A DNA stretch of 64,000 bases from Lepisosteus oculatus (taxonomy: Eukaryota > Chordata > Actinopteri > Semionotiformes > Lepisosteidae), in the NCBI RefSeq assembly GCF_040954835.1, contig NC_090714.1, forward strand, positions 8,792,501 to 8,856,500, read 5' to 3'. The notes beneath the pieces are model-generated. The model did not search any database. It was not told where the DNA came from and was given only the letters and a program-made list of their open reading frames with translations. The position numbers and the translations under genes were made by a program. Each line of letters begins with the position of its first letter. Positions within the stretch are counted from its first letter, which is position 1. Positions 4,541-64,000 of this stretch are shown in pieces.

Positions 4541-5960
4541 CGGGCAGCATTTCATGTAGCACAAACTGAAAACGAACATGCAATTTTAATCCAGTACTTA
4601 TTATACTATACATAAATTCTTTATATCGAGAGTGCTACAGTCATTTACGGATATAATCAGATATTTTTCTTAATCACTACCAGGATTAACAAATCTTATG
4701 TCGTTTTCGCGATGTCTATTTTAATCAAGCGCACTCAAACTAAACATTTTTCTGTTTGGGATCGCTGATTTGAACACACGATGAGTCCAAGAACATTTGT
4801 GAAATATTCTGCAGTTTAGCATGAAATGCATCATACAAGTAAGTGTTCACCCTGGAGAGTTCTATTGTTAACGGGTGTTTTAATGTAAAGTTTTTGCTGC
4901 CTTGGCATAGTGAATTTAAGTTCACATGCGCATAGAGACTGTCTTACCTTGGTTGCATGCGACGTCCTGTGTTTTGTAGACACAAAAGATTATTTTTTAA
5001 AAGTTTAAAACAAGTACGTTTGAGATTTAAAACATTTTACAGCTTTGGTTGTAATATGTCTGTTGTAAAAATGTTTGTAGTGCGACATTTAAAGGTGATA
5101 TAAAGGCAATAGCTCTGTTGATTTAAATTTGTTCATAATGCTTAGGTCGTATGTAGTGGGTTGTATCACGTGCCTTTTCTGAGAGATACAATGGGATTCG
5201 ACTTGGTTAGCAATGCTTGTGCGAAAAAACTTACAACTTTCACCTAAAATGATGTGTATATATAATGATACAAATACATTTAGAGCTGAAATACCAAAGT
5301 GAGATCTCGCTTTTGTATGTGTAGTACAGTAAACATTCAGTTTAACGCTGAATAACACTGAACACACACTCAGATAAAGGGGAAATGCATAAATAAATAA
5401 GGTAAAAATAGATACTTAATAGTTTTAAAATTCAGGAATATCGGTTGCTTGAAATGGGTGTCAGTTGTGTTTGGTATGCTTTAGTGCATTTTATACAGTA
5501 TTTACAACAAATGAGTTTGTATATTGTGATAAAAATGACAGGGACAAATTTCATTATGTTCATTGCAATTTTTGTTTAAACAATCAGTTTATATGATTTT
5601 TTGTTCTTAAGTCTTTATATAGTATGTACTTACAGTATATCATTTGGGAGACGTTATCTGTAGTTTAATGGACACCCCTTCAGCCATATTAGTCCTTTTA
5701 ACTGAGGGTTTACTGTAATGGCTTTTGGTGTTCTGTAAAGATGGGGGAATGGGAGTGATTGAGTGATTCATTATTGGCATGTACAGCAAAATAAAAATGA
5801 CTAGTCTCATTTGACATGATAGACTAAAGCTTGTGATTCATTTGTGTATTTTGCTTTTTCTGAAGTTTCTTGTTTCTTCTTAACATTGATACCAAGGAAA
5901 AGGACATTTTAGTTTAGGATTAGCTAGACTACTGATACTGTTTTTCCTCTTCATTTTTTG
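4541..5960. other. KDM8 upstream region, no coding sequence seen
   Basis: AT-rich sequence with no convincing exon. A CATGCGCA word (NRF1-like) and a GACGTC word (CRE-like) lie near 4925-4970 and could belong to the KDM8 promoter, but no first exon could be fixed. The KDM8 start-codon exon is preceded by a pyrimidine-rich tract ending in AG at 5962-5963, so an upstream noncoding exon is likely somewhere here. Confidence 0.3.
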
Positions 5961-5971
5961 AAGAGTACAAA

Positions 5972-8900
5972 ATGGCTTACCTGTGGAGTGAGATAAAGAC
6001 TGCATTACCCCCAAGCAAGGTGGAGTTTGTACAACAGTTCAATGAGAAAATTGACCCCAGTATCATCGCCATGCTACAACAGGCTAAAGAGCTGCTGTAT
6101 GGACAAGCAATGGCATCTCAACTTTTACAGATCAGTCAGATCATCCTGGACTTCTCCTGGGAGAAACTAAACACAGGTACATGGAAAGACGTTGATAAGG
6201 AGTGGAGGCGTGTTTACTCTTATGGCTGCCTCTTCAAAACAGCTGCCTTATGTCAGAGCAAGCCAACTGAAGAAACTGTGCAGGAAGCTATAAAAACATG
6301 TGACATGGGACTGTTGATGGGAGCAGTCATCATGGACAATTTGCTTCAAAAGCTTGTTGGTATCCTGCAGAATAGGGTGAAGAAAAGGAGACTTCACAAT
6401 ACTGACCAAAATGACACCCACTGTTTGAAGGTATGTTAAAGTTTCTCAGTGAAGACTTTATTCACCAAGATCAACTGCCTTCTAACAAATCGTTTTAGAC
6501 TTAAATGGGCATTGTTTTTCCAGGTTTATCGCAACTGCTTTCCCTGAATTGCATGTTAAGGCAGTTAAACTGGTAACACAGAAACATTTTTGTGTGTTAG
6601 AAAATGCTCTGAGCAACAGCGGAGTTGCCAAATGATAACATTTGTACACATTTCGTATTGTTCTAAAATGTCTTCATTTCACTGCAAGATCGTTCCATAT
6701 AGTAAACAGTATTTGTACATTTCCAGTGCTGAACATGTAAGAACATAAGAACATTTTTGCCACTCATTAACACAAAGTACTCTATAATATCAAATTAGAA
6801 TTGGAATAATTAATTAAAAATAAAAAACAGGAAATGATTGAATGCATAAGTATTCACTCCCTTGCTTTGACACACCTAAATTACCTCTGAAGTAACCTCT
6901 GTTCTCCAAGTCACATAATTACTTGGCTGGAGTCCACCTGTGTGCACTTGAGGTGTTCCACATGATTTCAGAATAAGGTACACCTGTGTCTGGGAGCTTC
7001 CCCACTTACTGCATTTCCGAGGAAACACTACACCATGAAGACCAAGGAACATTCCAAGCAGATCTGAGACAAGGTTCTAGAAAAATACCAGTCAGGCCAA
7101 GGATATAAGAAAATTTCCAAGGCATTGAATATACCTCGAAGCACAGTGAAGTCCATCATTAAAAAGGTGAGAAAATATGGAACAACTGTGAATCTGCCCA
7201 GAACTGGCCATTCTCTAAAACTGAATGTCTGGGCAAGAAGAGTAAGGGAGGCCACCAAGAGGACTACAGCACCTCCTTCATGACAGAGATGGGAGAAACT
7301 GTGCATGAGACAACAATAGCATCCACACTTCATAAATCCGGTTTATACGGAAGGGTGGCAAGAAGAAAACCTTTGTTGAAAAAAACTCATATCACATCTC
7401 GGCTGGAGTTTGCCCAAAGGCATGTGAGAGACTCAGCAATTTGGAGGAAGATTCTATGGTCTGATGAGACCAAAATTGAACTTTGTTTGGCGCAAACCTA
7501 ACACAGCACATCACACTGAGAACACCATCTCTACAGTGAAGCATGGTGGTGGCAGCATCATGCTTTGGGGATGCTTCTCTGCGGCAGGGACTAGAAAACG
7601 CATAAAGATAGAAGGAAAAATGGATGGAGCTAAGTTCAGAAAAATCCTGGAGGAAAACGTGCTGCAGTCCGCAAGAGCACAGGGACTTGGAAGACCATTC
7701 ATCTTCCAACAGGACAGTGACCCGAAACATACAGCAAAAGCCACACTGGAGTGGCTTAAAACCAAATAGGTTAATGTCCTAGTGTGGCCCAGTCAAAGCC
7801 CAGACCTCAATCCGATTGAGCATCTGTGGAATGACTTAAAAATTGTTGTTCGAAAATGGTCCCCATCTAATTTGATGGAGCTTGAGCAATTTTGCCAAGA
7901 AGAATGGGCAAAAATTCCAGTGTCAAGATGAGTCTCTTTACCCAAACGGTTCTTACCAAGTATTAATTCTGGGGGGGGTACTTATGCATTAAATTATTTT
8001 CTGTTTTTAATTTTTAATTAATTTAGTAAAATGTCTGGATTTGTTTTTCTGTTTGACATTATAGAGTACTTTTGTTGAGGAGCACAAATTCTCAGTTAAA
8101 TACATCATGTATTTCCATGGTTCCATGCTGAAACATATTAAAATATGAAAATGTCCAAGGGGGGTGAATACTTTTGCAAGGCACTGTAAGTCCTTAATTT
8201 AATTCTACAGTATTAAATTCTCACAATATGCATTTTAGCATATATAGCACAATAGCATACTCCTAACACTATACCTTTAGAATGACAATTCAATTAGTTT
8301 GACCCACATAGATTTGAAGACTCTTGATTCCTCTAACAAAATCCAGAACCCGTATTAATTTTTAATATATATTTAATTTTAAAATATATATATAGCTACA
8401 TCTTTCCAATATCTTCAGAATAGTGTATCTCTTCAGAACAACAACTGGGTCATCCCCTGCCCTAGCAAAGAGTCTCGAATATGGATGCTATAAGTCACTA
8501 ATATCATGGATATCTAGATATGGCAGACTGTTAGAAAGAAGGAGACCGGCTATAAAGGAGCTCAAAGCTTGTGCCTCAATAAACTGTCTGGGAAGCCTGT
8601 TCCAAATGCCTTACAGCTCTTTATGGGAAAAATAGTTTCCTATTCAACATCCAAAATTAATACTTTTTTGTTTTTCAGTTAGGCCACCATCTCCTTGTTT
8701 CATTACTGTATCTAAAGACATTCCCTGGGTTGACCCTATCTCTACTCTTTAGGTTTTTATATATTGGGATCAAATCTCCTCTTGATTGCCTTTAATCTAC
8801 ATTGCTGTGATTTAGTTGCTTTAACCTGTCTGTAAGTGACTCCTGAGACTTAAGAATCATTCTGTGTTAAACCATTTTTGAGTCTTTAGAATTCTGTTTT

Positions 8901-19000: not shown

Positions 19001-22000
19001 CTATACAGTGCCTTGCGAAAGTATTCGGCCCCCTTGAACTTTTCAACCTTTTGCCACATTTCAGGCTTCAAACATAAAGATATAAATTTTTTATTTTATG
19101 TGAAGAATCACCAACAAGTGGGACACAATTGTGAAGTGGAACGAAATCTATTGGATTTTTGAAACTTTTTTAACTAATAAAAAAATGAAAAGTGGGGCGT
19201 GCAAAATTATTCGGCCCCTTTACTTTCAGTGCAGCAAACTCACTCCAGAAGTTCAGCGAGGATCTCTGAATGATCCAATGTTGTCCTAAATGACTGATGG
19301 TGATAAATAGAATCCACCTGTGTGTAATCAAGTCTCTGTATAAATGCACCTGCTCTGTGATAGTCTCAAGGTTCTGTTGAAAGCACAGAGAGCATCATGA
19401 AGACCAAGGAACACACCAGGCAGGTCCGTAATACTGTTGTGGAGAAGTTTAAAGCCGGATTTGGATACAAAAAGATTTCCCAAGCTTCAAACATCCCAAG
19501 GAGCACTGTGCAAGCGATCATCTTGAAATGGAAGGAGTATCAGACCACTGCAAATCTACCAAGACCTGGCCGTCCCTCTAAACTTTCAGCTCAGACAAGG
19601 AGAAGACTGATCAGAGATGCAGCCAAGAGGCCCATGATCACTCTGGATGAACTGCAGAGAACTACAGCTGAGGTGGGAGAGTCTGTCAATAGGACAACAA
19701 TCAGTCTTACACTGCACAAATCTGGCCTTTATGGAAGAGTGGCAAGAAGAAAGCCATTTCTCAAAGATATCCATAAAAAGTCTCGTCTAAAGTTTGCCAC
19801 AAGCCACCTGGGAGACACCCCAAACATGTGGAAGAAGGTGCTCTGGTCAGATGAAACCAAAATCGAACATTTTGGCCACAATGCAAAACGATATGTTTGG
19901 CGTAAAAGCAACACAGCTCATCACCCTCAACACACCATCCCCACTGTCAAACATGGTGGTGGCAGCATCATGGTTTGGGCCTGCTTTTCTTCAGCAGGGA
20001 CAGGGAAGATGGTTAAAATTGAGGGGAAGATGGATGCAGCCAAATACAGGACCATTCTGGATGAAAACCTGTTGGAGTCTGCAAAAGACCTGAAACTGGG
20101 ACGGAGATTTATCTTCCAACAAGACAATGATCCCAAACATACAGCAAAATCTACAAAGGAATGGTTCACAAATAAACGTATCCAGGTGTTTGAATGGCCA
20201 AGTCAAAGTCCAGACCTGAATCCAATCGAGAATCTGTGGAAAGAGCTGAAAACTGCTGTTCACAAACGCTCTCCATCCAACCTCACTGAGCTCGAGCTGT
20301 TTTGCAAGGAAGAATGGGCAAGAATTTCAGTCTCTCGATGTGCAAAACTGATAGAGACATACCCCAAGCGACTTGCAGCTGTAATCGCAGCAAAAGGTGG
20401 CTCTACAAAGTATTAACGCAAGGGGGCCGAATAATTTTGCACGCCCCACTTTTCATTTTTTTATTAGTTAAAAAAGTTTCAAAAATCCAATAGATTTCGT
20501 TCCACTTCACAATTGTGTCCCACTTGTTGGTGATTCTTCACATAAAATAAAAAAATTATATCTTTATGTTTGAAGCCTGAAATGTGGCAAAAGGTTGAAA
20601 AGTTCAAGGGGGCCGAATACTTTCGCAAGGCACTGTATACCATTGCAATGAAGGTAGAGTGGGGAACAGAGACATTTAAAAGAAGAAAGAAGAGGTGCAG
20701 TAACAGTACTTAAACTGTAAAGAAGATTATAAATACCATTAATGCCCCCACAGGTGGCTCTGTGGCTAAGGATCTGCGCCTGTGGCTGGAAGGTTGCCGG
20801 TTCGTATCCTGCAGCTGGCAGAGGAATCCTACTCCGTTGGGCCCCCAAGCAAGGCCCTTAACCCCAACTGCTCACGGGGTGCCATATAAATGGGTGACCC
20901 TGCGCTCTGACCCCATACTTCTCTCCCTATCTGTGTGTCTCATGGAGAGCATATTGGGGTATGTGAAAAAACAAATTCCTAATGCAAGAAATTGCATATG
21001 GCCAATAAAGTGATCTTATCTTATCTTACCTCTGCCTGAAAGACTACGGAGGTCAAACAACCCATACCCTTGAGGGACTAGAAGATTGAACAGGAGACCA
21101 TCATTCTGTCTGTGCCAGGTTTCGGTTAAGCACAGAAAATCATTTTTTTTTCTGTAATAAGGTCACTAATGAAAAGAGCCTAATTATTCACAGTGCAGGT
21201 GTTTAGTAGTGCTGATATGGCCTATTTTGGGGAGCCAGGGGGCAGCGGAGTGGGTTCCAGCCATGCTAAAGTGAGTAGCTGATAATGGCTTTAAATAAAT
21301 AAAAAATACTACAAACTAGTTCTGAACCACTAAGATGATACAGATTTCCTGAGAAATCTGATTATCTATTGATGCTCTGAGTCATATTATAACTATTATC
21401 ATGTTTTGTTAAATCTACAATAGTCCCTTAAAATACAGGTGCTTCAGTCTCTGAATGTAGAGTGAATATTCTAGTACCATGCTTAACACTGTCACTACTG
21501 TCACTAGTGATTGGATCTTTCAGTTTCACCAGAAGGTATACCACATGCAATGTTACAACATTTTATGAACAATAAACTGCACATAAGAATGCCGCTAGGC
21601 AGCAACTTGAAACAAATGCTGGTATACACATGCATTCTTTTGAAAAAGTATCCTCTCATTGGATACAAATATTTGGAACTCCCAGTCAAATGAATTTTCT
21701 CACTGGCCAGCAATGTGGCTTCAGAAAAATAACCCAGACTTTGTTTACCTTTCCTGGCCAGAACAATCCTTATATCTTAATCCTGTGGAAAGTCAGTAAA
21801 AACAGTATAAAATGCAGTTCAGTGCCACAGACCTTACTTGGTGATCCTGCTAGAACAATGGAATTCGACTGGGTAGCAAATATTTCAAAACTTTGTGAAA
21901 TAAATGACAAGTCAGTCACACTTGAACTATTCTTTCAGCCATGGAAACCTGATATACTGTATTATTCAGTAGGTGCTCCTAATGTATTAGCCAGTAAGAG

Positions 22001-23467: not shown

Positions 23468-24890
23468 CCTAGCAAAAAACAAGAAAGAGCACGCCATCAA
23501 CTGCAGAAAAAAGCCTGCTAATGAACTGAAAACGTATTACACACTACCCAAAATATTGTTAAGATGCCCTTATCTAGTCTGACCTTATGCTTAAATTCAA
23601 TTATATACACTGTATATTAAAAACAGGGAACATATGTGCAGAAACAATGCATACAAATAAATTAATAAAAACACTAAGGCTAGCACAAAACCTGTGAAGA
23701 AACTCTCATGTCAATAAAAAACAAACAATAAGAACTAAAACGGTGTTGGTGCGAAAGCTTTTTTGGAATATTATTATTATTCAGTAAATAAGGTTGACGT
23801 GAATCATAGAGTGTAATTTTTAGACAGGAAGAATAACTCAACATTTTTGTCATTTTAAGAATATGAACTTCATGACTACGATCTCTTGGTTAGGAATAAA
23901 CTATCCCCTGCTGAACAGGAAATCAGCCATAAAATAAAAGCTAGGCAGCTACAGTAAGTGATAACCTAATTTACTTTACACAATGAAATACTGCAGTGTT
24001 ACAAGGCATAATATTCAGCTAAAACAATAATATTCAGTTAGAACCATTTACAAACACTTTTTTATATTATTACAGTCCTTGCAAATAGTAATATAAAATG
24101 TATTTGATAAAATAATAACCTAATAAAGTCTGGATTAAAAGGAAAGCACAAATATTTCAATACCAGTTATAGCGTGTTACTGGGGCCTTGGTATTTTAAT
24201 TACGCATTGCATTTCCTTATATTGGCAATTTATATAGTTTCCTTGTGCTTTTCACACATCTTTTCAATAAAATATTCCACGGTAAAATACAAGTACTGTC
24301 GAAGTTACACGTACGATTATAGCTTTACTATAGTTCAGTTATGTGTTCAAATATGACTTTTTCAGACCGCACCGCAATCCACATTCCTCCGAACTACTAC
24401 TATTGCCACTGGCAAATGTCAAGCAGAGAGAGTCGTGATTGGACAATGCGCACATACATCACATGAGAAACCAGATGAAAATGATTTTCGCTTCCTTAAA
24501 AATAAGTGGTTTAGTCACGTAACCTTTACATAACATGTCTTACCGTTTGCCTACAGACTTTAAAACGACAAAATAAGTAGTTTCAGTCTATCCTCTACAA
24601 CAGACAGTACGCAAATCACTCTCCTCAATAGTAGTTTGTACAAGTCAGTAAAATTACATACTCCAAAGAGCCGAACCGTATCAATGTGACCTGTTCCTGC
24701 AGGTTAAGACGCTCTGGAGATACACTGGAAGAGACCAGTAAACTCAAAAGAGCAATAGCGTGAAGCTAGCTACAATAAACGACTCTGGCTTGGCAGCACC
24801 TTTCAAAATAAAAGTCTCCTAAAACCTGGCTCATATAAAATAATCCTGTACCAGTTAAAGTCACATTTATAGCACAACAACAGTTTGTTC
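23468..24890. other. NSMCE1 5' flank and intron, no coding seen
   Basis: AT-rich sequence without recognisable coding exons. A noncoding first exon of NSMCE1 probably lies within it, because the start-codon exon is preceded on the minus strand by a pyrimidine tract and AG at 23469-23470. Confidence 0.35.
24360..24480 (-). promoter_or_regulatory. Possible NSMCE1 promoter
   Basis: On the minus strand a CCAAT box (TGTCCAATCACG) lies next to a TGTGCGCATT NRF1-like word and a CATGTGAT E-box-like word, in the only locally GC-richer patch upstream of NSMCE1. The transcription start was not fixed. This is inference from motif content and position. Confidence 0.3.
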
Positions 24891-27235
24891 ATCCTCAAAA
24901 CTATGTGAAATGTGATAAATAGACCCACAAATAATATAAAATTGCCATTCTTCATTAATTTTTTGCAATCTTATTGGTGTTTTTATATCACTTCCTCCTT
25001 GCAAATTGACATAGAGCTGTGCACTGCTAGACAGGAAAAAGTATCATTCCTGACAAAAAAAAATGTGCCTCTCCAAAAGTAGTTAAAATCTATTCTACAG
25101 ACCCACAGCTAATAGAAAATCACCATTGTTTTCTCAGATAAGTGTCTCTATCAAAACTGCTGGGGTTTATAGACCACCTCCCATTCCTAGACTGGGCCCA
25201 TGCAGTGATGGGCAGGGAGCGGTCTCACTCCCTTCCTGACCAAACAAACATTTGTGTCTCTCCAAAAATACCTCAAATCTACTCTATAGACCCTCAGCTA
25301 ATAGTGCATAACCATGGATCATGCATAAGTCATTATAAGTGTCTTTGCTAAAGTTGCTGGGGTTTAGAAGACCACCTGCTGTTCCCAGACTGGGATGGTG
25401 CAGTGGTGGACAGGGAGTGGTCTCACTCCCCTCCCAACCAAACCAAAATTTGTGCCTCTTCAAAAGCACCTCAAATCTATTCTACCGACACTCGGCTAAT
25501 AGAAAATCACCATGGTTTTCTCAGATTAGCATTTCTGTCAAAACTGCTGGGGTTTATAGAGCACCTCCCATTCCCAGACTGGGACTGTGTAGCGATGTGC
25601 AACATTTGTGCCTCTCCAAAAGTGACTCAGATCTGTTCTACAGATCCTCAGTTAATAGTACATCACCATGGTTTTGCCAGATGAGCGTCCTTTGCCAATG
25701 TTGCTGGGGTTTATAGGGGCCTTTTAGTGGCCGATACTAGATTTGTTTCGAAGGGCATGTTATCGCAATGTGGGCATTGTTAACACTTCACCAGTGGATC
25801 TTCTTTTCTGGTTTGAAATAAAGTGTCAATTTCACACTTTCTTATTAAAGTGTATCGAAACAGCCAAAATATTGAATAGACCTTCAATGGTGATGTGTCT
25901 TTCCTGGGAAGGTGGCTCTGCCAAAGACATGGCATGGAGCCTTTTTGATTTGATCCGGTAATGTGGAAACGATGGCTCACATGTTGCCCAAGTACCAGTT
26001 GATAATTGATTCCCCCCATGAGTTCCGATAGACTGGGAAGTAAAGATGCATTGCAGGTGTTCTGCATCAAAACACTAGACTTTCTCTTAAATCAGATCAG
26101 CTTTTATTATTTTGAGTGTAGAACTACTCAGACAGCATTCAAACGCTGCTTTAGCTGTATGGCCTATTGTCCTTTGGACATATAAATTCTGCACAGAAAT
26201 TAAAAGTTAAAACCCTCATTTAGCAAGCATCGCACCCCACCTTTGGTTTTTTTTTGGCTGATGGGTAATTTACAGATGCATTATGGTTTTTGCCTTTTCA
26301 AAACACTGCCAGTCATCCACTCTATGTCTAAGAATGGTTACTCCGTGTCACATCTATGGTTTTGGTCACAATACTATGATCTTTAGTGTCAGCATTACTT
26401 TGGTTGGGATCACGGCTGTTGTTTACACTTTTCCCTGTCCAACACTGCACAGTCCCAGTCTGGAAACAGCAAGCGGTCCTATAAACCCCAGCAACTTTAG
26501 CAAATAATTATAATAATAAGAATTGCTTACACTTATATAGCGCTTTTTCTGGACACTCCACTCAAAGCGCTTTACTGTAATGGCTCCACCACCACCAATG
26601 TGCAGCATCCACCTGGTTGATAAGCAAAGACACTTTCTGACAAATCCATGGTTATGTACTATTAGCTGTTAGTCTTTAGAGTAGATCTGAGGTATTTTTG
26701 AAGAGGCACAAATTTTGTTTTGTTCGGGAGGGGAGTGAGACCACTCCCTGTCCATCACTGCACGATCCCAGTCTGGGAACAGCAGGTGGTCTTATCAACC
26801 CCAGCAACATTAGCAAAGACACTTATCTGAAAAAAAAACACAGTTATTTTCTTTTAGCCAAGGGTCTGTAGAATAGATCTGAGGTATTTTTGAAGAGGCA
26901 CAAATTGTTGTTTGGTCGGGAGGAGAGTTAGACCTCTCCCTGCACCATCACTGCATTGTCCAAGTCTGGGAATGGGAGGTGCTCTATAAACCCCAGCAGT
27001 TTTGACACAGACATTTATCTGACAAAAACAAGGTGATTTTCTATTAGCTGAGGGTCTATGCAATAGATTCCATCCACCTTTTGAGAATCACAACTTTTTC
27101 CAGAGGTGATCCACCCAGACCAACAATATTAATAAAGACTTAAAACTGAATGAAGAAGGGTGATTTACTATTGGCTGACTGTCTTAAAACTGTATGTTAC
27201 ACTACTTTTGATGGTGCAAAAAATATGTTTTTGTC
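24890..27235. repeat. Fold-back pair of inverted ~190-bp tandem arrays
   Basis: The left arm (about 24890-25716) holds direct repeats of a ~190-bp unit; the marker TGTGYCTCTYCAAAA starts at 25064, 25253, 25451 and 25607. The right arm (about 26425-27235) holds the same unit in reverse complement, with marker AAGAGGCACAAATT at 26701 and 26893. A ~0.7-kb non-repeated core separates them. The most distant units on both sides (24890-25018 and 27075-27235) are clearly more diverged than those near the core. The units end in TTGCTGGGGTTTATA next to the core. Open frames across the units are repeats of the same sequence and not a protein family I recognise. Nature unknown; a fold-back transposon is one option. 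Confidence 0.8.
26505..26622 (-). repeat. SINE/LINE-tail insertion inside the fold-back right arm
   Basis: A 118-bp piece flanked by direct AGCAAA copies (26499-26504 and 26623-26628) interrupts a repeat unit. On the minus strand it reads ...AAGCGCTTTGAGTGGAGTGTCC...AAGCGCTATATAAGTGTAAGCAATT and then an AT-rich tail. This is the same family as 52950-53460. It dates the array as older than this insertion. Confidence 0.7.
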
Positions 27236-28770
27236 CCTGGTTATAGTTTAAAAAACTGATTGAATTAAAATATAATAAAGGATTTGATTTAATTAGAAAT
27301 TTCAGATACAGCTCCTTTAAAAGCTTCCATCTTAAAACCTTTTGCATTGAACAGACAAAAAACATTTATATGAAAAAATATAGCAATGACAATTTTTACA
27401 GTAGTATAAATGGAAGAAATGTGCTGTAAAATTAATAAAAACTTCCAATAATCTTAGATTTGTCGAATTGGAGATTAGTGGAGGCGATTTAAAATTAAAA
27501 AGGACCCTCTCAAATTTTGGCGGAATGTTCAAGGAATTACATTTAACCACGAAGAAATAACAAAGCAGAAGTTTCAGCTGCTTGTCACTTCGCTTAATGT
27601 TGCTACAGTATACTCCTCATACGCTCCTGTGGTAGCTGAATAACTTTTATTTTGATTGAAATTCGGCTATTTACATACACTTCCGGATCATTCGTGTCGC
27701 TTAGTGTAACTAGCTTCACGCTACTAGCAAGAGCACAGCTCCTTCTCACCCGGACGAAATTACCGGCTGTACCCAAACACGAACATGCGCAGTCCGATTG
27801 GTCCCCAGTTCCGGTTCATTGGTGGCGAAACCGCAGTTCGAGACACTGGGTCGCGGCTTGTGAGTCCTCGCAGGACTGCACACACCGGTTTAGTGTGTCA
27901 GGAAAATAAAAGTGGCATCCCTTGCAGCTCTATTAGCTGTATGTTGCAACTTTCTTTAGGGGAGAGTATTTCACTGCGTATGACCGAACGTATAGTGCGA
28001 CTTTCCTGTTTACAAGAACCTAAAGCGCTGTACAAATAAACAGCATAAAATATCAACACTTGAAAATAGAAAAATAAAACACAACGAAAACAGAATGTAG
28101 TAAACACCAGAAATACAACGATAGGTTGTGAATGCTGGTTTCCCCACTGCCTACATTTCAATAAAGCAAAACTGAAACCTGGACGACTCGCAGTACTGTA
28201 AGGCTCTGTTAAAGCTGTGCAGAACTGTGCTAATGCAACTCATTGTTCCAGTTAAGTTTATGAAGTGCATGATATATCAGGCACAGTATATACTGCACAT
28301 GTACATATGTAATTTGATTAACAGGTTAGTTTAAAAAGCGAATTAGTAGAGAGTTAAAATAAGCTATTTATTTGATGCTTATAACAATATTGTACAACAA
28401 TCAGTGATTGTTTAGCTTTTATTTAAATCAGCCTTCTACTGTATAAGCTTCCAGAGACACTACGAACTGTTTGAGGGGGCATCATACAAGGTGGATATTG
28501 ACTCTTTTTCCGGGGGTGACAAAGCGATTACTATGTTGAAAAAACGGATGAATATTACATTTACATCTGCAATGGCCTTGTTCGACCTATGGGTGTGTTC
28601 TGCTGTTAAAATTGATTACTTTTTAACATTCTTATTGGATGCTCAGTTAAAATCTCGCAAAGAACAAATATATAAGAAGTGCTCATTCACCCGATTCCTT
28701 TAACCTATTGAGGAGCTCCAGTCAAACATACAATACTAGATACTTTAGTATAAAATGATTCTTTATGTGG
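27236..28770. other. Interval with a GC-richer promoter-like patch
   Basis: No exon of a known protein was recognised. The only notable patch is 27650-27900, listed separately. Two overlapping short open frames there (27652-27909 and 27785-28039) do not resemble any family I know. Confidence 0.3.
27650..27900. promoter_or_regulatory. CpG-rich promoter-like patch without an assigned gene
   Basis: CpG dinucleotides cluster here, unlike the surrounding AT-rich DNA. An ETS-like CTTCCGG, an NRF1-like CATGCGCA and two ATTGG (inverted CCAAT) boxes about 22 bp apart lie within it. Such a mix is typical of vertebrate housekeeping promoters. No adjacent coding exon was found; it could start a noncoding RNA or an upstream exon of NSMCE1 or IL4R. 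Confidence 0.35.

Positions 28771-29411: not shown

Positions 29412-29476
<65 letters not shown>
29412..29476. repeat. (TTA)n microsatellite
   Basis: About 21 uninterrupted TTA units. It follows the LINE tail closely. Confidence 0.97.
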
Positions 29477-47805: not shown

Positions 47806-50400
47806 ATATAATTGGAGAGGAAGCGCTGGAAATTTATAAGAACTTTCAGTTCGAACCCGGAGAACATGTGAAGTTAGATATTGTCATACTGGATAAATTT
47901 GCAAGATGCTGCATTCCAAAACGAAATGTGACTTATGAAAGACAGATTCTTCAGTTGTACGTGTACACAAACTAGGTGAAATGGTTGATCAATATCTTAC
48001 TGAGTTACAAACACGGAGTAAAACATGAATTTGGAGAGTTAACAGAATCTCTAATAAAAGATAGGATTGTCTGCGGTATTCCAGATAACGCACTCAGGGA
48101 AAGATTGCTAAGAGAGCAAGATTTGGATTTGGAAAAAGCATTAAGTAGCGTGAACTAAAGCTGTACAATATGCAACGCAGGGGAAACCAAAAAAAAAAAA
48201 CGCAAGTAAAAGAGAAAACTGCAATTACTGAGAAAAATAAAAAAATGGAAATAAAAAACAAGCGCATAGCACAAAGCATGCTTTTGGACGCTGTGGATCA
48301 CAGCACGCTCCTAGAGAATGTCCAGCATATGAAAGAATTTGTAAAGAAATGTGGAACGAATATCCAATTTGCACCCTGCTGTAAATTGCAAGGAAAACTA
48401 AGCCAGGTGCATATTGTAGTAGAGGAACCTGAAGTTGAGTAATTTTATGTAGATACACTGACTGAAGTGAAAGAAAGAGTGCATTTTCCTGGTACAAGTG
48501 AACAATACAGTAATTTCATTGAAACTAGATACGAGAGCGCAAGTGAATATCATGCCTGAAAATGAATTTAGAAATACCTTTAAAGTGGAAATACCTTTAA
48601 AAGGGCTAGTGTTCTGTACAAAAAACAGAAAATACCTACTATAATTTGTAGTTGTGCCAAAAGATGTATAGGCAATTTTATGTTTGCATGTGAGAAAATG
48701 AACTTGAATGAGAGAGTGCTTACTATTAATATAGAGAGCAATGCAGAGTACAGTATGAATCACTGCTGCAAAAATATAGTATTCTATTTAAAGGACTCAG
48801 TTGTCTTCCCGGGGAGCAGAAGATAAGAATAGACAAAAATGTAACTCCTGTCATCTACCCCTGCTAAAAGGTTCCTTTCGCCCTAAAGGACAAACTGAAA
48901 GAGGAGCTGAACAAAATGGAAAGCATGAATGTGATCAAGAAAGTTGAGGAACAAACTGAATAGGTGAGCTCTCTGGTTATTGTAGAAAAGAAGAATGGTA
49001 AATTAAGAATATGTTTAGATCCCAGAGACCTGAATCTAGCCATTAAGAGGGAACATTTTAAACTGCTAACAAGGGAAGAAATTATGGCACGGTTTGCAAA
49101 TGCAAAATATTTCAGTAAATTAGATGCATCTTCTGAATTTTGGCAACTAAAATTAGATTAACCTAGTTCCAAGTTGTGCACGTTAATAACCCTTTTGGCA
49201 GATATCGATTTCTGAGATTGCCTTTTGGAATAGCATCAGCCCCAGAGGTCTACAACAAAACAATACATATTATTTTTGAACATCTGGATGGAGTTGACAC
49301 ATCCATAGATGACATCATTGTGTGGGGATCTTCAAAAGAAGAGCATGATGAAAGGCTGAAAAAAAGTTCTGGATGCTTCAAGAGCAGCAAATTTGAAGTT
49401 AAACAAAGAAAAATGTATGATAGGAGTAAAGGAACTGATAGTTTTTCTGAGCAGTGATGGAGTTCGTCTTGATAAAACAAAAGTATCTGCTATTGAAAAT
49501 ATACCAAGGCCACAGTTAATTTTCTTGCAAATTATATTCCTAATCTATCAGAAATATTAGCACCTCTTAGACAACTGACTGAGAAAAATGTTGAATGGAG
49601 TTGGAACCGTGAGCAAGAGATGTTCCTGACCCAGATGATCTACAATCCACATAAACCAATCAAGATTTCATCAGATGCCTCACAATATGGATTAAGAGAT
49701 GTACTATTACAAAAGCATGAAGAAACATGGCAGCCAGTAGCATATACATCTAAAACTCTTACTGGAGCAGAGATAAGATATGTGCAAATAGAAAAAGAGT
49801 TGTTGAGCATCACTTTCACTTGTGTAAGGTTTCATCCGTTTGTATTGGGATAAGCTGTGATGGTTGAAACAGACCACAAACCATTGATAGTTTTGTTTAA
49901 AAAAACTCTCAATGACTGTCCACTATGTATTCAACACATGATGATTAAACTTCAGAGATACACCCTGGACGTACAGTATAGTAACATTCACTCCAGGCAG
50001 ATGGATGTTTACGACGACACGCTGTCAAGGGCAGTAGATAAAAAATCTAGACATCAAGAGAAGATCTCAGAGGCAGTAGAACAATATGTGGACATGCCAG
50101 TCCACATGCCAGTTACAGCAATACCAGTGTCAGACAGCATAACACAGCTTATCTGGAAAGAAGACAAAGCAATGAAAAGGCTGAAAGAAGTAATCCTACA
50201 AGGATGGCCAGAAAACAAGCATGACTGCCACCCACAAGTGACTGAGTACTGGAGCTGTCGGGCAGAACTTACAGTTGTGGATGGAATCATATGCAAAGGT
50301 AGCAGAATTGTGATACCAATGTCATTAAGGAAGCAGATGCTACAGAAAATTCATGAAGGGCATTTGGGAAATGAAAAGTGTAAGAAAATTACACTTTAGT

Positions 50401-52949: not shown

Positions 52950-53470
52950 GATACTACATCATTGCTGTGGCTCTAGATATGAATGAAAAAGGTGTGAGCC
53001 TGGCCAGTACCTGGATGGTGGTGTTAGTGGGGCCAGTGGACCATCCTGTGGTCTTTGTGGTTTCCAATGCCCCCAGTATAGTGATGGGCACACTATATTG
53101 TAAAAAGGTGCCATCCTTCAGATGAGCTGTAAAACCAAGGTCCTGACTCCCTGTGGTCATTAAAAATTCCAGAGCGTTTCTCAAAAAGTGTACAGGTGTT
53201 ACCCCGGCATCCTCGCCAAAATTTCCCATTGGCCTTTATAAATCATGACCTCCTAATAATCCCCATCTCTGAATTGGCTTTATCACTCTGTTCTCCTTCC
53301 CACCGATAGCTGTTGTGTGGTGAGCGTACTGGTGCACTATGGCTGCCGTAACATCATTGAGATGGGTGCTGCACATTTTTTTGTGGAGGAGGGGAGTCCT
53401 CATTTCTTGTTTCAAGCCCTTTGAGTGGAGTGTCCAGTGCTATGTAAGTGTAAGGAATTATCACTTTGCC
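52950..53470 (+). repeat. Long copy of a dispersed SINE/LINE-tail repeat
   Basis: Contains CCCTGTGGTCATTAAAAATTCC, GTGGTGAGCGTACTGGTGCAC, CTTTGAGTGGAGTGTCCAG and the tail GCTATGTAAGTGTAAGGAATTA. The short insert at 26505-26622 is the same family in reverse. It is common in fish genomes; the minus strand open frame at 52954-53229 is a by-product. Confidence 0.7.
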
Positions 53471-54917
53471 AAATATCATAATTCTTAATTCAGATATATG
53501 ATTTGTTTATGATTTTAATAGAAGTGTTACTGTTCAACCATCTCACCACCAGAGGGCACTCCAACCTCTAGCACCTACTCCAGCTGTGCAGCAGAGGCAC
53601 AGACCAAGCAGATGTCTGTAACCAGTACTTAAGCCTAGTGTCCCTAGCTCTCCATACCTCCCCTCCTCAGGCTTATTTAAACCCTGCTCTCTGACCATAA
53701 TGTGTTTAATATTGTTTACTTCACATTGAGTGAGTGAATTAAAAAAAAAGTTGTTTTTCCTAGTTATAGTAGTTTCCCTCTTGTCTTTATTCCTTTCCTG
53801 GTTACCCTGTTTCTTACTTTTGTTCTTTGGAATTGTTTCCTTTTTGCATATTTTTCCCCCTGTTTGTTGTTCTGTGCTTCTGGTGTTTTGTTTTTCTTCC
53901 TGGATTACTAACCTGGTTTTGGGATTTGGCCTGTTTTTCAACATTGTTTCTTGGTTGTGTTTTATTGTTATCTTTCTGGATCTTCCTGGTTCTGGACTTT
54001 GGCTTGTTTCAAGGGTGTGGGTTGCGCTTTATTTTCCTCATTTTCTTTGTGACAGTTGGAACACACATATGGTCCATTTCTTGATTAGCTGAGCTGTCTG
54101 AGAGCCCTAACAAGAAGTGCACATAATATTCACCCTTTATGAGGTCATTTGTCCCATTTAGCTCAGATGGTTTCTAAGTTGTTAGTTGATTCAAAAATCT
54201 TATATAAATCTCATGAACTAACTTTTGCCACATTAATTTTAGTAGTACCTGATGAAACCAGTTTAAGACTCTAAAAGAGCTTTAAAGAATGGTCATACTA
54301 GATGGATACAGAAGGTATATAAAGGAAAACTAACAGTATGTGGAAGAACTACCCCCTGCTGGGAAATATATATATTCTAGTTAAGGCTCTGGGCTGTACT
54401 TCAGTGTCCAGTGCCTTCAAAACACCAGAAAAACAAAAAAGTTGAATCAAGTTGCAGCCTGGCATTTTGGAAAGATGAAATTAGTACTGTATGTGGCTGC
54501 AGAACTAATATTAACTTCAAACATTTTGGTCATTCTTGAAATGTTTTTTTAAACTTGTTAAGTCTTATTTCTTATATAAATGTATCTTTAAAAACTGAAA
54601 AAAAGTTATTCACCCAAAGGAATTTGTTTTAGCATACACCAGCAAAGGTCAATTAGAACAACTCCAAACAGATGTTCAAAGAATTATGCTATCATCTCCA
54701 TTTGATGTCTGCACAAAAGGAATAACAATTAGATTATCTAATTTATAAAAAGAAAAGATGATCTTGTCAAGTGTGCATATGACAAAAAATAGTGAGAGTA
54801 GCGAAACGTTTCAGATACAGGAAATCAATTGCTTTAGGCACCATCTGGGACTCCTGTGAGAAACGTTATGTACATAAGTATGGAGTATAGTGTTGTGGTA
54901 ATGATTATAAATATAAG
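53471..54917. other. Intergenic, no gene seen
   Basis: A T-rich stretch (53720-54060) gives long but low-complexity open frames. No exon or known repeat was recognised with confidence. Confidence 0.35.
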
Positions 54918-62300: not shown

Positions 62301-63179
62301 GAGGACTGTAAGGTTGCAAAAGACACTTTGGATTATTTTAACTTCATTCAGTGCAGCGTATTTTAAGTTGATTTCTATTTGAGACATTATATATGTATAT
62401 GATTGATTTACTTCAGCAAGCTGGAGCAATTTCAGTTGAACATCGGTTCAGGATTTGGTGAAATCCATTTCAATTTCTTTTAACACAAACCAACTCTTTT
62501 TTCCCCCATACATTCTGAAGAAAAATGCATACTGTACCTTTAACTCTGGAGTACTCACTCAATCTGTTTCCATTTAGTTCTTTTTTTACCACTAGCTCTT
62601 GGTATGAATTTACTGCCAAGGTCAGCTTATCGTTGGCTTGAAGAATCTCCGCTGGGAAAGAGGAAAAAGGAAATTCTAAATAAAACAAAATAAGTAGTAA
62701 ATGCTTTGAATACCCAAAATCCGGTTAAGTTTTACCCACTATTTTCCCAGAGGTAATATGCACCAAATAAAATGAAAATAAAATTGTTTTAAGCAATTGA
62801 TAGTGGTGGCTCGGTACACTCTTACTCTCTTGTTTTCCTAGAATTCAATTTCCTTATCTCCTCCATAGCATCTACTGTAAAAGTATAAATACAGTGAAGA
62901 ATGTAGACCTAACTGGAAAAAATTAACTACATTTTAGGCCAAAAACTTTTGGTTTAGGGTTAGGTTGGGTCTGCTTAGGTTACTTATCACATTTGTCATT
63001 CTATTAATACTTGACAGACCCAAATCTGAAGAGATATATGTAAATATGGAATAATTAGTTACAAGTAAAAAATCCAACTTTTGCCTGACATCTGTACCTA
63101 ATGCTTCATCATTATCAACAGTATCGCTGGCCAGACGAAAGAGGGTGGGTCTCAGTTTTTCACATTTCTCATACAGGTC
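56353..63179 (-). CDS. gga2: GGA-family clathrin adaptor, likely GGA2 (partial)
   Basis: Exons on the minus strand: 63179-63098, 62651-62559, 61583-61434, 61096-61026, 60713-60535, 60202-60096, 59582-59413, 58637-58527 and 56463-56353 (stop 56353-56355). They encode the last 357 aa, and all phases agree. First comes the end of the GAT domain (EKCEKLRPTLFRLASDT; EILQAND), then a hinge with LLDEEFMLLGLNDPP, then the GAE ear (TAYDKNGLRVMLHFAK; PPAVISQVMLLSNPQ; GEVENFPDL). The ear's AVISQ and GEVxxFPDL words favour GGA2 over GGA1/GGA3. Known role: an ARF-dependent monomeric adaptor that sorts cargo such as mannose-6-phosphate receptors at the trans-Golgi and endosomes. The VHS domain and the start lie beyond 64000. 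Confidence 0.92.
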
Positions 63180-64000
63180 CTGGAACAAAGCAGATTCAGA
63201 TGCTTTATCTTCTTTTACAGTGAAACTTTCACATTTGGAAAGCATTCAGATTTTGGGTTCTGGCCTTGTCACTACATGACTGGAGACATTTATTTTATAT
63301 TGACCTTTTGTAACATAACATGAATTTGAATTTAAACAAAGTTAATCAACAAACCTCCAGAACTGTTTGTAATTTGTGACTAGTACATTTTCAGTTAATA
63401 TAGGAACTCTAAACTGTGCATTTTGAAGTAAGCATATATTGGTTCTTATCTCCCTTAGCTCATCAGTTATCAGTTTCTGTTAACAGCAGAAGTTTATGTT
63501 CCAGAGTGAAGTTACAAGGGCGATTGTGAAATTTTACAAAGGCTTTAATATTCTTATGTTTAACTGCAGTTAAGGGCAATATTATAAAAGGTACTGTAAT
63601 CTACTTTCATTCTAAATAGATCACACAGAGGGACAACACCCTCCACACAGGTCTGAGAATAGAGCAACTTATAAAAAAACTAAGAAGAGACTTTAGATAT
63701 CCCAGCTACTGTTCAGTAATTATCAATCCATTAATTAGCAGCCATTAAGATAATCAAGTAGGTAGCTGTAGCTGTGTAGGTAGCTGTGTCAGCATTCATA
63801 AGCTGTAAAGGAACAAGTCAGGTGCCACACCTTCTTCTGTTTTCAGCATGGAATAAACTTTTACTTGTTCCTCATACATTATCATCATCATACATTAAAC
63901 ACCCACGCCTCTGCTGCTATTTCTTTTTTGATCCTCATTCCTCTTGATAATATTCAACAGTTCTGCTACAGTGTTGCTTATTCCTGCAACATGCCTCTCA
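63180..64000 (-). other. GGA intron, continues past the window edge
   Basis: No further GGA exon was recognised between the GAT exon and the window end. The only feature seen is the short hammerhead-family copy at 63761-63872. Confidence 0.4.
63761..63872 (+). repeat. Short deleted copy of the hammerhead-motif element
   Basis: Has both mutually inverted ends (GTGTCAGCATTCATAAGCTG...AAAGGAACAAGT and CAGCATGGAATAAAC...TTACTTGTTCC), but the middle, including the hammerhead core, is deleted. The left end GGTAGCTGT is tandemly repeated. Confidence 0.65.

Follow-up and report, generated by a model that had tools for sequence, protein, structure and literature searches.

Within the 64,000-nucleotide stretch of Lepisosteus oculatus DNA analysed here (referred to as the window), two tandem arrays of one ~190-bp repeat face each other across a short core. 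The question raised by this locus is whether the arrays are the inverted ends of a fold-back DNA transposon or a minisatellite that was duplicated in inverted orientation, both of which had been offered in the preliminary description of the window. The structure very probably belongs to a multicopy family of fold-back DNA transposons, of which it is a dead copy with an internal deletion; the closest kind is Rehavkus/FB (Mutator-like), of which it is a candidate member.

The layout was established by self-comparison of the window, in which arrays of the ~190-bp unit, mutually inverted, flank a core of ~715 bp; opposed arrays around a core of ~0.7 kb, as first described, were thus borne out. Positions 25057-25525 aligned with 27099-26636 in inverted orientation (82% over 470 columns, E 2.6e-121, BLAST self-comparison). 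Inverted symmetry was also evident from a repeat listing of 23500-28500, which contained 16 inverted pairs of at least 40 nt, the top pair being 191 nt at 88%. The periods reported by TRF were 198 and 192. The arrays, delimited by self-comparison, unit splitting and BLAST, are composed as follows.

24871-25716, + strand: left array, units L0-L4
24871-25059, + strand: unit L0, outermost of the left array
25060-25248, + strand: unit L1, left array
25249-25446, + strand: unit L2, left array
25447-25602, + strand: unit L3, left array, shortened
25603-25716, + strand: unit L4, left array, partial
25717-26431, no strand assigned: core (about 715 bp)
26432-27245, - strand: right array, units R3, R2, R1 and R0
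26432-26721, - strand: unit R3, right array, interrupted by an insertion
26510-26622, no strand assigned: 113-bp other repeat inserted in unit R3 (self-comparison; relative at 53353-53476)
26722-26913, - strand: unit R2, right array
26914-27102, - strand: unit R1, right array
27103-27245, - strand: unit R0, outermost of the right array

In the window copy the inner units are 0.73-0.86 identical to each other, compared with 0.64-0.68 for L0 and 0.62-0.68 for R0 against the inner units. L0 and R0 are nevertheless genuine, if distant, relatives of the other units (BLAST E values of 2e-7 for L0 versus L1, 2e-11 for R0 versus the L1 region and 2e-4 for L0 versus R0). The significance of this relationship rests on the BLAST values, because shuffled sequences gave no usable control for the pairwise aligner: free end gaps admitted short overlaps, giving a mean of 0.73 with top percentiles of 1.0 for the window units and, in the between-copy comparison, 12 usable pairs out of 300 with a mean of 0.675. 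A maximum-likelihood tree of the units was weakly supported (38-56) and nothing was drawn from it. Rfam and tRNA searches of the inverted-array structure gave no match, in agreement with the absence of a tRNA or 5S signal noted earlier for the unit. Likewise, no match was obtained in a Pfam search of one array ORF and one core ORF, in a search of viral contigs with one exact unit pattern or by blastn of the structure against phage records, near records possibly being omitted from the last two.

The host genome (1.2 Gb, 813 contigs) was searched for further copies, as had been proposed in the preliminary description. At least 229 pieces matched window positions 25500-26700, a lower bound with 40 of 1658 candidates scored; the matches listed fall at about 33 separate places, counted by eye. 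A sample of 20 loci (L009-L028) was selected for matching, and each of the 20, so selected, carries array sequence together with some or all of the core. The two core segments 25842-26196 and 26203-26430 were matched over at least 60% of their length by 13 and 11 of the 20 loci, respectively. Of the 18 loci with a left array, 11 have its inner edge at unit position 118-122; for the right array the inner edge is at 170-174 in 11 of 14 loci. Left arms contain two to seven units and right arms two to five, partial ones included. Other copies have the core, the array phases and the terminal repeats (see below) in common with the window copy. A second copy (L014, about 8786186-8790250 of C19) lies on the same contig, upstream of the window and ~27 kb from the window copy. 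Three loci on contig C14 (L018, L019 and L020) are composites of a short element and an inverted partial one with the same flanks, and are probably one larger duplicated unit.

The limits of the element were set from the homology limits of other copies and from terminal repeats. Alignments with the other copies break off within 24751-24777 on the left side and within 27708-27739 on the right side, except in L024 (27640) and L025 (27388). In many copies terminal inverted repeats sit at these shared limits, outside the arrays. The extent 24890..27235 given previously is therefore too narrow, and the following features were assigned.

24754-27725, + strand: full extent of the internally deleted transposon copy (2972 bp)
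24754-24783, + strand: left terminal inverted repeat (25 of 28 letters agree between 24756-24783 and 27723-27696)
24784-24870, + strand: left end segment, external to the array (mean best identity of 88% for 24756-24870, 12 loci)
27246-27695, + strand: right end segment outside the array (27246-27725 has a mean best identity of 87%, 11 loci)
27696-27725, - strand: right terminal inverted repeat (pairs with the left terminal repeat, 25/28)

In nearly all the other well-preserved tips, AG stands before the terminal repeat; at the left end of the window copy the two letters are AA. An alternative placing of the ends close to the arrays (a TTATAG direct repeat, hAT-like ends) was dropped, as homology continues further out.

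Flanking sequences were compared for 11 end pairs from ten loci, with the ends set at AG and lengths of 3-12 tested; L019 and L020, which have the same flanks as L018, were left out. In the window the candidate target-site duplication is as follows.

24745-24753, no strand assigned: candidate 9-bp target-site duplication, left copy (matches the right copy in 6 of 9 positions)
27726-27734, no strand assigned: candidate 9-bp target-site duplication, right copy (matches the left copy in 6 of 9 positions)

At length 9, 44 of 99 positions matched, versus 28.6 expected (p 0.0014, flanks re-paired 5000 times; p ~0.014 after correction for ten lengths); the p values at the other lengths ran from 0.008 (length 3) to 0.44. 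An imperfect duplication is present in four of the 11 pairs: L021 (eight matches), L022 (seven), the window copy (six) and L026 (six, from a pair that encloses a rearranged locus of 7.1 kb and might not bound a single element). The remaining seven are without a duplication: L010 has four matches, L011, L014 and the short element of L018 three each, L012 two, and L009 and the L018 composite one each. L010, L011 and L014 have damaged ends, and the flank limits there are guesses. The seven pairs that lack a 9-bp duplication, among them L009 and L012 with their well-preserved ends, count against the 9-bp reading. By these sequence comparisons, the set of copies as a whole supports a 9-bp target duplication.

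The arrays and core are poor in CpG (observed/expected 0.09-0.38, bins 25001 to 27000), while the sequence flanking the element is relatively CpG-rich on either side, with values of 1.14 and 0.74 at 24251-24750 and 0.87 and 1.08 at 27501-28000, as if the element had landed within a promoter-like region. In a Pfam survey of ten window ORFs, a KDM8 domain was found at 5936-6439 and a GAT domain at 62934-63245. The same survey placed HTH_Tnp_Tc3_2, DDE_3 and HTH_SB domains (Tc1/Sleeping Beauty-type) in 350 stop-free codons at 19364-20416 (+ strand), which look like a little-decayed Tc1-like transposase. Retrotransposon remains lie at 2015-2926 and 49497-49853 (integrase zinc-binding domain and RNase H-like domain, Pfam), and a perfect (TTA) repeat of about 21 units was located at 29413-29476 by TRF.

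The core of the window copy is what remains of a longer interior, both edges of which are matched by 25842-26196 and 26203-26430.

26196-26203, no strand assigned: internal-deletion junction (2.2-2.7 kb present here in L012, L010 and L009)

The sequence lying between these two points amounts to 2.7 kb in L009, 2.4 kb in L010 and 2.2 kb in L012. This interior is common to other copies (mostly ~80-94% in BLAST pieces, down to 70% in pieces of L026) and missing from the window copy, which is therefore internally deleted; the fuller copies measure about 4-6 kb. Compared with L010 across core and interior, the copies have identities of 0.86-0.93 (K2P 0.07-0.15). Mismatches between copies, counted in eight L010 pieces against 12 other loci, numbered 392, 367 and 386 at codon positions 1, 2 and 3, so the compared copies show no sign of selection on the frame. 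With such identities and no codon-position bias, the copies behave as would be expected for old, neutral ones. A candidate autonomous copy of 9-10 kb (C8:25253000-25264800) was rejected as rearranged known interior split by ~4.6 kb of other sequence.

Coding relics were sought in the interior with Pfam. PF00628 (PHD finger) was matched by three stop-free interior pieces (E 0.0012-0.0019) and PF00443 (UCH) by three interior pieces (E 0.08-0.10), all below the curated cut-offs. The UCH pieces correspond to profile positions 124-164, 131-164 and 201-239, with 124-164 followed by 201-239 in element order, and the PHD and UCH matches, each weak, occur in order along one element strand. A profile of the PHD region searched against the PDB returned PHD proteins on top (E 0.006-0.012). 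That of the second UCH region returned USP28 chains only, aligned on the histidine-box region (E 0.65-1.3), and that of the first UCH region gave no match. The predicted structure of the USP-like piece had a pLDDT of 37 and was set aside. Other weak Pfam rows (including DUF2483, PfkB, Sublancin and zf-DNA_Pol, E of 0.005 or more) were taken as chance. Judged from these profile matches, a PHD finger is likely to be present on broken pieces, and its link to a transposase is putative; PHD fingers are not specific to Rehavkus, occurring in RAG2, for example. No transposase domain was matched in 20 stop-free interior pieces (Pfam), nor did the assembly give any match to the Mutator-like domain PF10551 at a threshold of E 0.001. 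The latter is weak evidence against Rehavkus membership, because Rehavkus transposases may not match PF10551.

FB/NOF foldback elements have long, internally repetitive inverted ends, and Foldback and Rehavkus together are contained in the RepeatMasker class MULE-NOF. Tandem arrays in inverted ends are a feature of Foldback/Rehavkus that is present here, and the family probably works like Rehavkus/FB elements and is related to them. In the parts of the published accounts that were available, Rehavkus is described from arthropods and annelids as having inverted ends 26-400 bp long, a duplication of 9 bp, a minisatellite close to the 3' end and a PHD finger (PMC6446971), and Rehavkus-1_TC of Tribolium with a 164-bp satellite unit in short arrays, mostly of five and eight monomers, within its inverted ends (PMC10218199). 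Judged by these same parts, the present family resembles Rehavkus in its candidate 9-bp duplication, weak PHD finger match and short arrays in inverted ends. It differs in the length of its fuller copies (the Tribolium element is 9.5 kb), in the absence of a DDE transposase from the 20 pieces scanned together with the presence of a USP-like relic, and in the position of the arrays, which here are enclosed by end segments of non-array sequence.

Tetris, a foldback element of Drosophila virilis, is portrayed in the available portion of its description with ~220-bp tandem units, variable in number, in its inverted ends, duplications of 8-10 bp and a middle without apparent coding capacity, and the Mutator superfamily was suggested for it (PMC4079207). 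Inverted ends built of tandem units (~220 bp there, ~190 bp here) are common to both. According to that portion (PMC4079207), however, the units of Tetris have a likeness of ~94%, occur in long satellite arrays as well and occupy the outer domain of the inverted end, in contrast to the lower likeness of the inner units, short arrays and subterminal position found here. Galileo of Drosophila also has long, internally repetitive inverted ends, but the accessible account places it in the P-element superfamily. MULE-NOF elements are named in the consulted parts of reports on zebrafish (PMC4746887), Orestias pupfish (PMC11184842) and carps (PMC7486454); the likeness to these fish elements is one of group label, the comparison being by name and not by sequence. 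These reports bear on the earlier remark that no named fish element with this layout was known.

It is also conceivable, if rather unlikely, that the element is a DNA transposon of another or undescribed superfamily, in which array-bearing ends evolved independently and which encoded a PHD plus USP-like protein. The lack of a MULE domain match in the assembly would agree with this, as would the two UCH pieces that keep their profile order on the element and the absence of a USP-like domain from the available part of the Rehavkus description in PMC6446971. These points are weakened by the sub-threshold scores of every UCH and PHD match and by the little weight that the missing PF10551 carries, and Rehavkus/FB accords with the arrays, the 9-bp duplication and the PHD finger as far as the accessible descriptions go. 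More doubtful still is a separate vertebrate fold-back lineage with its own protein, a PHD finger joined to a USP-type deubiquitinase, of which the 4-6-kb copies would be decayed relics. If such a protein existed, it could read host chromatin and strip ubiquitin from the element or from host repressors. Among the open-licence papers listed for this combination (15 of 23), no title points to a transposon with a PHD plus a USP or UCH domain, and for foldback or MULE elements in teleosts one open-licence review was listed.

The arms were also considered as a transcribed hairpin locus, a source of dsRNA or siRNA kept for its fold, as their complementarity of 82-88% over long stretches might suggest. 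Identities within and between copies argue otherwise. Left-right identity is 0.827 within a copy and 0.825 between copies for L1-R1, and 0.663 and 0.666, respectively, for L0-R0; units of the two arms thus resemble each other no better inside one copy than across copies, so no homogenisation of the arms is seen since the copies spread. Maintenance of complementarity is not seen either, and a hairpin locus is very improbable.

Comparison of the units between copies also bears on the symmetric decay towards both outer ends that had been claimed for the structure. Between-copy identity at the same position (16 loci, without L018-L020, L026 and L028, units shorter than 110 bp excluded) was 0.903 for L0 (45 pairs), 0.892 for R0 (66), 0.890 for L1 (66), 0.858 for R1 (78), 0.856 for L2 (45) and 0.841 for R2 (66); the lower values at inner positions may in part reflect changes in unit number that shift the count from outside. 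Faster decay would make an outer unit vary more from copy to copy than an inner one, and the opposite was observed. The outer units are indeed less like the inner ones, but as conservation across copies is highest for the outermost units, their divergence was inherited and is not decay of the window copy. By this comparison the outer units are conserved subtypes.

That a minisatellite was locally duplicated in inverted orientation without any mobile element, which the window structure by itself would allow, is refuted to the point of being extremely improbable, because numerous sites on many contigs have the same arrays, core and outer ends, and copies on other contigs share the same core and boundaries.

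The fold-back DNA transposon with arrays in its inverted ends, the first of the two initial proposals, is accordingly supported by copies that share core, phases and terminal repeats and, in some cases, 9-bp duplications. For the family, common ends, common array phases, a common core, many copies, a lost interior and a 9-bp duplication supported for the set were observed. At each end a short terminal inverted repeat lies outside a subterminal array of ~190-bp units, the two arrays being opposed. We propose that a transposase recognised the inverted ends and excised the element, which would then have been inserted with a 9-bp staggered cut. Array length may have been altered by unequal exchange or slippage, and the middle of the window copy could have been lost before or after landing.

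With this family, the satellite-in-inverted-end layout described in insects now extends to a vertebrate-type genome. What looks like outward decay in arrays of this kind can reflect a pattern of inherited subtypes instead of the ageing of a copy, and the PHD and USP-like relic raises the question of what foldback elements encode outside arthropods.
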